A stretch of DNA of 64,000 bases from Fimbriimonadaceae bacterium. Its GTDB lineage: Bacteria > Armatimonadota > Fimbriimonadia > Fimbriimonadales > Fimbriimonadaceae. The notes under the pieces are model-generated. The model was not told where the DNA came from. It was given only the letters and a program-made list of their open reading frames with translations, and ran no database searches. The stretch lies in the NCBI GenBank assembly GCA_019454145.1, contig CP075366.1:1715564-1779563 (forward strand), in the 5' to 3' direction. Made by a program: the position numbers and the translations under genes. This document shows, piece after piece, positions 27,080 through 28,674 of the stretch; within the stretch, counting starts at the first letter, position 1, and every line of letters begins with the position of its first letter.

Positions 27080-27490
27080 TTACCGAACTTCAATTGTTGA
27101 AGTAATTTCCGGTACTGCCCTCAACGTTGCCATGACTGTGCAGTATTTTTCTTCGCTTAACTGTACTGAACGCGCAACCGCAGCTTCGCTTAAATTTTCA
27201 CCTGTAACAATATGCTTGATCGTAATTTTTTCAAAGGGTCTTGGCCATTCTCCTTCGATAGTACGTACGCCGTTGACTTCAATACGGTAGCTTGTGACAA
27301 CTTGCTGTTTCTTTTTCAGAATTGAAATCACATCCATCGCCGAACAAGCGGCTAGCGATCCGAGTAGCGCTTCTACTGGCGTTGGGCCAAGGTTGTGCCC
27401 TCCTGCTTCAGGATATGCATCCATCACGAAACTTTGACCGCTATCTCCGCTGGCCTCAAAAGCCATGTCCCCTTTCCAAATCACGTTCAT
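27080..27490 (-). CDS. OsmC-family peroxiredoxin-like protein
   Basis: 136 residues in the OsmC/Ohr fold. The two redox cysteines expected for peroxide reduction are C49 (GSLAACSAMD) and C117 (EEKYCTVM), in the usual contexts. GHNLGPTPVEALLGSL is the family signature. It resembles the YhfA branch more than Ohr, which has a different N-terminal part. It would detoxify organic hydroperoxides in the cytoplasm, but YhfA-type substrates are unknown. It precedes a tRNA-Sec gene in divergent orientation but uses Cys. Confidence 0.85.
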   Translation of the reverse strand: MNVIWKGDMAFEASGDSGQSFVMDAYPEAGGHNLGPTPVEALLGSLAACSAMDVISILKKKQQVVTSYRIEVNGVRTIEGEWPRPFEKITIKHIVTGENLSEAAVARSVQLSEEKYCTVMATLRAVPEITSTIEVR

Positions 27491-27587
27491 GCTGAGTATT
27501 TCACCACGTTCTTAAAGTACGTCCCATTGGATTTTGTTCTCCATGCCCAGGACAGATTGGTTCAAGCTCTAAAATGATTGGTCATAC

Positions 27588-27682
27588 GGGAGCGAATGGG
27601 TGCTGGTGTGCCCCCCGGTCTTCAAAACCGAGTGCGGCGCTTGAGGGCGCTGGGTGGGTTCGATTCCCACACGTTCCCGCCA
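27588..27682 (+). tRNA. selC: tRNA-Sec (anticodon TCA)
   Basis: A 95-nt selenocysteine tRNA gene with an encoded CCA end. Anticodon TCA (27622-27624) reads UGA, in the 7-nt loop CTTCAAA. The acceptor stem is 8 bp long in layout (GGGAGCGA at 27588 against ACGTTCCC at 27671), followed by discriminator G and CCA. The D stem is 6 bp (GGGTGC/GTGCCC) with the 4-nt loop TGGT, a tRNA-Sec hallmark. The variable arm is long (CGGCGC/GCGCTG), and the T arm GTGGG-TTCGATT-CCCAC is canonical. Two weak points: the eighth acceptor pair is A-A and the outermost anticodon-stem pair is C-A. Confidence 0.93.
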
Positions 27683-27714
27683 ATCGAAACTGTTTTGCTT
27701 ATCGTCTAAATTCT

Positions 27715-28674
27715 GTGAGTAACTCAGGCGCCTTGCTAATCGGCCAACTTATCGGCAAGAAAGCATCAATCCTAACAAACGAATCCGAAATTGACCACAG
27801 CCAACTCACATGGATTCATATTAGCGGACAGGTTTCATGCCTAGCGGTTGATAAGATCATCGAGGAGTTTCCCCTGACTTATGGAGATTTGGAAAACCAA
27901 TTTCTCAGGCTCGGCATCGAATATCGCGACAATGGGTTTGCTCTCCTTACCACTCACGCGAGTTGTGGCGAAGAGCCGATGTATTTCCCACTCGGAATCT
28001 TTGTTACTAAGGATGTACTTGTTACGATCGCTCCGCAAGAAGTGCCAGAGGTGACGTCACTTTTTCATCAGTGGATTTTGAATCCCGTAGAGCACGGCTT
28101 AAATGCGGGAGCTTTGCTTTACTCAATACTCGATCTGATTCTTGATTCATACTTCCCAGTTCTCGACACAATTCATGATCGAATTGAAGATATGGAGGAT
28201 GATATCTTCAAAAATTCGTTAGGAAGTTCCGCTAAAATTCTCCAGTTAAAAAAATTCTTGCTAGTAATGCGAAAACAAATCTCGCCAATTCGAGAAAACG
28301 TAAACTCTCTAATCCGACTTGGTCAGCCGATTATCGCCAAAGCACAACTACCTGAATATCAAGACCTTTACAATCACAGCCTGCGCATTAGCGAAAACAT
28401 TGACACTGGACGTGATATTATTACTGGTCTCCTTGATGTACAGCTAAACGTTGCTAGTAACCGTCTCAATGAGGTCATGCGTACTCTCACCGTCATCAGT
28501 ACGATCCTGATGTCGAGCGCTCTGATCGCAGGGATTTATGGCATGAATTTCAAGCACATGCCAGAGCTTGATTGGATGTATGGCTATCCGTTTTCAATTG
28601 GACTCATGTTACTTACAGGAATTGGCATCTATTTCTGGTTTAAAAAATTAGGTTTCGTCACACCTAAAACTTAA
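27715..28674 (+). CDS. corA: CorA-family magnesium/divalent cation channel
   Basis: 319 residues if the GTG at 27715 is used. An earlier start would lie inside the tRNA-Sec gene, so it was rejected; TTG 27733 is an alternative. The cytoplasmic funnel domain is followed by the willow helices (LKKFLLVMRKQISPIRENV) and two C-terminal transmembrane helices. The pore-mouth signature YGMN sits in GIYGMNFKHMPE, as in all CorA. It passively imports Mg2+ and sometimes Co2+ or Ni2+. No clear ribosome binding site is seen. Confidence 0.87.
   Translation: MSNSGALLIGQLIGKKASILTNESEIDHSQLTWIHISGQVSCLAVDKIIEEFPLTYGDLENQFLRLGIEYRDNGFALLTTHASCGEEPMYFPLGIFVTKDVLVTIAPQEVPEVTSLFHQWILNPVEHGLNAGALLYSILDLILDSYFPVLDTIHDRIEDMEDDIFKNSLGSSAKILQLKKFLLVMRKQISPIRENVNSLIRLGQPIIAKAQLPEYQDLYNHSLRISENIDTGRDIITGLLDVQLNVASNRLNEVMRTLTVISTILMSSALIAGIYGMNFKHMPELDWMYGYPFSIGLMLLTGIGIYFWFKKLGFVTPKT

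Follow-up and report, generated by a model that had tools for sequence, protein, structure and literature searches.

The window analysed here (that is, the whole 64,000-nucleotide stretch of contig CP075366.1 from a Fimbriimonadaceae bacterium) contains a 95-nt gene at 27588-27682 on the forward strand (genome 1743151), which ARAGORN calls as tRNA-SeC (tca), the sole tRNA called in the window, and whose bases 27588-27678 give the sole Rfam match in the window (cmscan; RF01852, 72.3 bits, E 7.5e-13, above the gathering score of 47). Its cloverleaf can be read directly from the letters, all on the forward strand: two 8-nt acceptor strands (27588-27595 and 27671-27678, the latter also seen in the 35-sequence alignment described below); a 2-nt linker; a D arm (27598-27613) with a 6-bp stem and the 4-nt loop UGGU; a 5-bp anticodon arm (27615-27632), in which the UGA-reading anticodon UCA occupies 27622-27624 (placed by ARAGORN at position 35); a long variable arm (27635-27652) with a 6-bp stem; a 5-bp T arm (27654-27670) with the loop UUCGAUU; and, at the 3' end, G73 followed by an encoded CCA. 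Direct reading confirms the layout that a first-pass annotation of this DNA had reported, namely the 8-nt acceptor, the 6-bp D stem with its 4-nt loop and the long variable arm.

When this gene (selC) is aligned with 34 relatives from the same order, 96.5% of cells fall in standard pairs, with 100% of cells paired in both the D arm and the T arm and 98.6% in the variable arm, and the anticodon loop CTTCAAA is invariant in all 35 sequences. Two-sided changes occur at 14 of the 30 pairs, a level reached in none of 500 shuffles, and in a control in which partners were shifted by one column pairing falls to 42-47%. (Single-strand folding gives a non-cloverleaf minimum, which is uninformative for tRNAs; a scan around selC found no sigma-70-like promoter or terminator pattern, such scans being weak evidence.) The earlier call of a tRNA-Sec with a UCA anticodon is thus borne out by ARAGORN, by RF01852 and by covariation, and its fold is accepted as tRNA-SeC by the tRNA scan (ARAGORN).

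The same annotation had flagged two unusual positions, an A-A at acceptor pair 8 and a terminal C-A in the anticodon stem, only the first of which stands. Pair 8 (A27595-A27671) is a genuine mismatch, so that the acceptor/T branch has 8 + 5 residues per strand yet only 12 standard pairs; bacterial tRNA-Sec with 12 branch pairs are on record (PMC5330540). It is also common. Within the order, 34 of the 35 tRNA-Sec have a non-standard pair 8 (G-A, A-A, C-A and, once, G-G), the 3' A being nearly always kept and the 5' base being G, A or C but never U; among other families of the phylum, non-standard and normal forms of the pair both occur. Outside the phylum, a sample of nine tRNA-Sec lying near selA, some of whose remaining parses are unreliable, includes A-C or A-A at this pair in three Gammaproteobacteria, a polyangiacean and a Henriciella-labelled contig, and for this reason the notion of a lineage peculiarity was dropped. 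Because pair 8 is non-standard across the order and in other phyla as well, the mismatch is by these comparisons a common variant rather than damage. Selection, as opposed to drift, for a non-standard pair 8 (G-A, A-A, C-A) in this phylum and some other bacteria seems doubtful; were it so, the mismatch might aid SelB acceptance or EF-Tu rejection of tRNA-Sec.

The supposed C-A mismatch, in contrast, gives way to a reading in which A27631 (position 43a), flanked by G27630 and G27632, is bulged out. The corresponding alignment columns 28 and 45 (here C27615-G27632) pair in 35 of 35 rows (C-G 22, G-U 10, U-A 2, U-G 1), whereas the alternative, pairing with the extra base, works in none of the 12 rows in which that base occurs; cmscan likewise handles A27631 as an insert. 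Such a 43a bulge is known from many 7/5 tRNA-Sec (PMC5330540).

Upstream of selC and divergent from it lies an osmC-like gene (27080-27490, reverse strand; PF02566, 71.6 bits), which is the neighbour of selC in 12 relative loci as well, mostly in divergent orientation at a distance of 55-120 bases, with a larger distance of about 0.9-1.6 kb in three of the 12. As a candidate selenoprotein it was rejected: ordinary Cys codons specify both of its conserved cysteines, and the gene lacks a TGA in all 12 relatives. The osmC-like/selC neighbourhood is conserved, and the gene may at most be regarded as a candidate for a selenium-related role. Downstream lies a corA-like transporter gene (27715-28674, forward strand; PF01544, 184.8 bits; TIGR00383, 208.6 bits), which is outside the selenocysteine (Sec) system. 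Its mechanically called reading frame (27574-28674) runs through selC; a start at 27574 is improbable, a GTG at 27715 being likelier. A corA gene follows selC here and in four relatives (G151, G152, G153 and G157); in the nearest relative (G154) no corA lies beside selC, and the gap between osmC and selC is occupied there by a different stretch, about 1.5 kb long.

As the first-pass annotation had stated, selA, selB and selD are absent from the window; all three genes, whose absence from the genome it had named as counting against its reading, are nevertheless present elsewhere in the source genome (G000; 2,758,789 bases in one contig, 99.6% complete). SelA is encoded at genome 438639-439691 on the forward strand (TIGR00474, 435 bits), SelB at 1576081-1577157 plus a C-terminal part on the reverse strand (TIGR00475, 334.5 bits), and SelD at 1998921-1999835 on the forward strand (TIGR00476, 344.6 bits), each above the curated NCBIfam equivalog cut-off; SelB retains its C-terminal winged helix (SelB-wing_3 domain). 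A selenouridine synthase (SelU) was not found in the genome, where one 25-residue fragment scores far below the cut-off. The nearest named relative is the Fimbriimonadaceae MAG ACE_ARM7, whose SelA is 95% identical.

The three genes are distant from selC and from one another. The genus and some sister genera share the selC region, including its divergent osmC-like gene, and G154 and G151 show a selC-selW-selD spacing similar to that seen here (about 120 and 135-160 kb). Because the region is kept in relatives and the spacing is similar, the dispersal of the Sec genes, and with it the isolation of selC, is by these comparisons an inherited arrangement. In Escherichia coli, too, selC has no linkage to selAB or selD. 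The earlier description of selC as standing alone is correct as to its isolation; that this is unusual is not upheld, the isolation being conserved in the lineage.

At least one selenoprotein had been expected, and two genes with an in-frame UGA were found, a minimum count obtained by searching the genome family by family. The first is selD itself, which has a single in-frame TGA (genome 1998951; MRLTHLVNCAG-U-ASKLGP); the U (CAGU-ASK) aligns to the Cys of the solved SelD structure 2yye, at the position of the catalytic selenium-binding loop (PMC13188914), and most SelD genes of the family carry one TGA. The second encodes a 78-residue SelW-like protein with a TGA at genome 1863673 within a CxxU motif (EYCVR-U-NYMPHAARV); exactly one in-frame TGA occurs in this gene in 23 of the 23 family genomes that have a PF10262 match. 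The first-pass annotation had pointed instead to formate dehydrogenase-like and peroxiredoxin genes, and here the search came out negative: no in-frame TGA was found among molybdopterin oxidoreductase/FdhA-like genes of the genome, nor in any of its 24 AhpC-TSA or 16 thioredoxin matches; CMD/AhpD has no match in the genome, and a coding-score screen for TGA read-through within the window gave no convincing selenoprotein. One congener (G156, 99% complete) has selC and a UGA-containing SelD and lacks the SelW-like gene; SelD may be its sole selenoprotein, or another family may have been missed.

Both UGAs are followed by a hairpin, with a UGA-to-apical-loop distance of 32 nt in selD (apical loop GGUUC) and 21 nt in selW (apical loop CGGGU), values that fall, together with the loop G, within the published limits for bacterial SECIS elements (PMC13188914). 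Among 26 sequences of the SelD hairpin 97.2% of cells are paired, and pair 31-45 is seen as G-C, U-A, A-U and G-U; the 3' base of this pair sits at the third position of an Arg codon, so the protein sequence does not dictate the pairing. Among 19 sequences of the SelW hairpin 96.8% are paired, and pair 21-33 is seen as C-G, A-U, G-C and U-G. Folded alone, the SelD region of the source genome outperforms 95% of shuffles (z -1.98), whereas its SelW hairpin is no better than shuffles (z 0.42), support for the latter being comparative only. Backed by these compensatory changes, both are predicted bacterial-type, SECIS-like hairpins. One member of the genus (G157) serves as a neat natural control on SECIS function: its SelD carries TGT (Cys) instead of the Sec codon, the hairpin has lost several pairs, and the fold has -7.1 kcal/mol versus -17 to -29 kcal/mol in the UGA forms; this genome retains selC and a UGA-containing SelW, and the other SelD genes of the genus have TGA.

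Across 85 family genomes, with selC scored as present at an RF01852 E below 1e-11 and SelD when over its cut-off, 47 have both, 35 have neither and 3 are discordant, with a single one of the two (1 and 2 genomes); the two co-occur (Fisher p 2.6e-20, with kinship ignored). Among the discordant genomes, G076 is incomplete and has a SelD fragment with a TGA, and G105 is incomplete. The third, G091, has a SelD-like gene (289 bits, no TGA) without a convincing tRNA-Sec, that is, either an orphan SelD or a SelD-like protein. Within the genus selC is present in 8 of 8 genomes. In G194 an RF01852 match of 57.9 bits, above the gathering score, is nevertheless called tRNA-Ser by ARAGORN; hence counts of tRNA-Sec that use only the gathering score of 47 come out too high.

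Judged from sequence—from the tRNA, from selA, selB and selD, from two in-frame UGAs with conserved SECIS-like hairpins and from co-occurrence—27588-27682 is almost certainly the selC of a complete, ordinary bacterial selenocysteine system. A tRNA-Sec-like molecule that operates without Sec, such as a selC* tRNA-Cys or an allo-tRNA reading UGA as Cys or Ser, would share the UCA anticodon and long arms that are common to some of these tRNAs (PMC7609411); yet selC* tRNA-Cys is marked by U73 and folds as 8/4, and allo-tRNAs are 8/4 or 9/3 (PMC7609411), whereas G73, the 8/5 layout, the RF01852 score of 72 bits and the full selA/selB/selD set with a UGA-containing SelD in the same genome make this reading highly improbable. 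Scarcely more credible is a decaying or relic selC that has outlasted the Sec trait, which the isolation of the gene and its non-standard pair 8 might suggest, given compensatory changes across the order, intact partner genes, two UGA genes with conserved hairpins and the recurrence of a non-standard pair 8 throughout the order as well as in other phyla.

For a functional selC, established knowledge of bacterial Sec systems suggests the following course: SerRS would load serine onto the tRNA-Sec; SelA would convert the Ser-tRNA into its Sec form, with selenophosphate supplied by SelD; and SelB would bring the Sec-tRNA to those UGA codons that have a SECIS hairpin behind them in the mRNA, where UGA would be read through. 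The users of this selC would then include at least selD, a selenoprotein helping to make its own precursor, and the small SelW-like redox protein.

No account of selenocysteine use in this lineage (Fimbriimonadaceae, Armatimonadota) turned up in a literature search; by sequence, the lineage has a complete, patchily distributed Sec trait with a predicted Sec-containing SelD and SelW, which leaves the known picture of the Sec system unchanged. Like bacterial tRNA-Sec generally (RF01852), the tRNA has UCA, 8-nt acceptor strands, a 6-bp D stem with a 4-nt loop, a long variable arm, a 5-bp T stem, G73 and CCA; it differs in having A-A at pair 8 and, in the anticodon stem, one additional bulged residue (43a). 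It resembles the 7/5 (12-bp) tRNA-Sec described with SecMarker (PMC5330540) in this bulge and in having only 7 standard acceptor pairs, but, unlike these, it keeps 8 residues per acceptor strand and so is an 8/5 form with one mismatch. From selC* tRNA-Cys and allo-tRNAs it is set apart by G73 rather than the U73 of selC* and by a 5-bp T stem rather than an 8/4 or 9/3 branch. The two proteins show no notable difference from known Sec-containing SelD and SelW-like proteins (PMC13188914, PMC1088965), with which they share a U in the selenium-binding loop, a CxxU motif and a bacterial SECIS just past the UGA.
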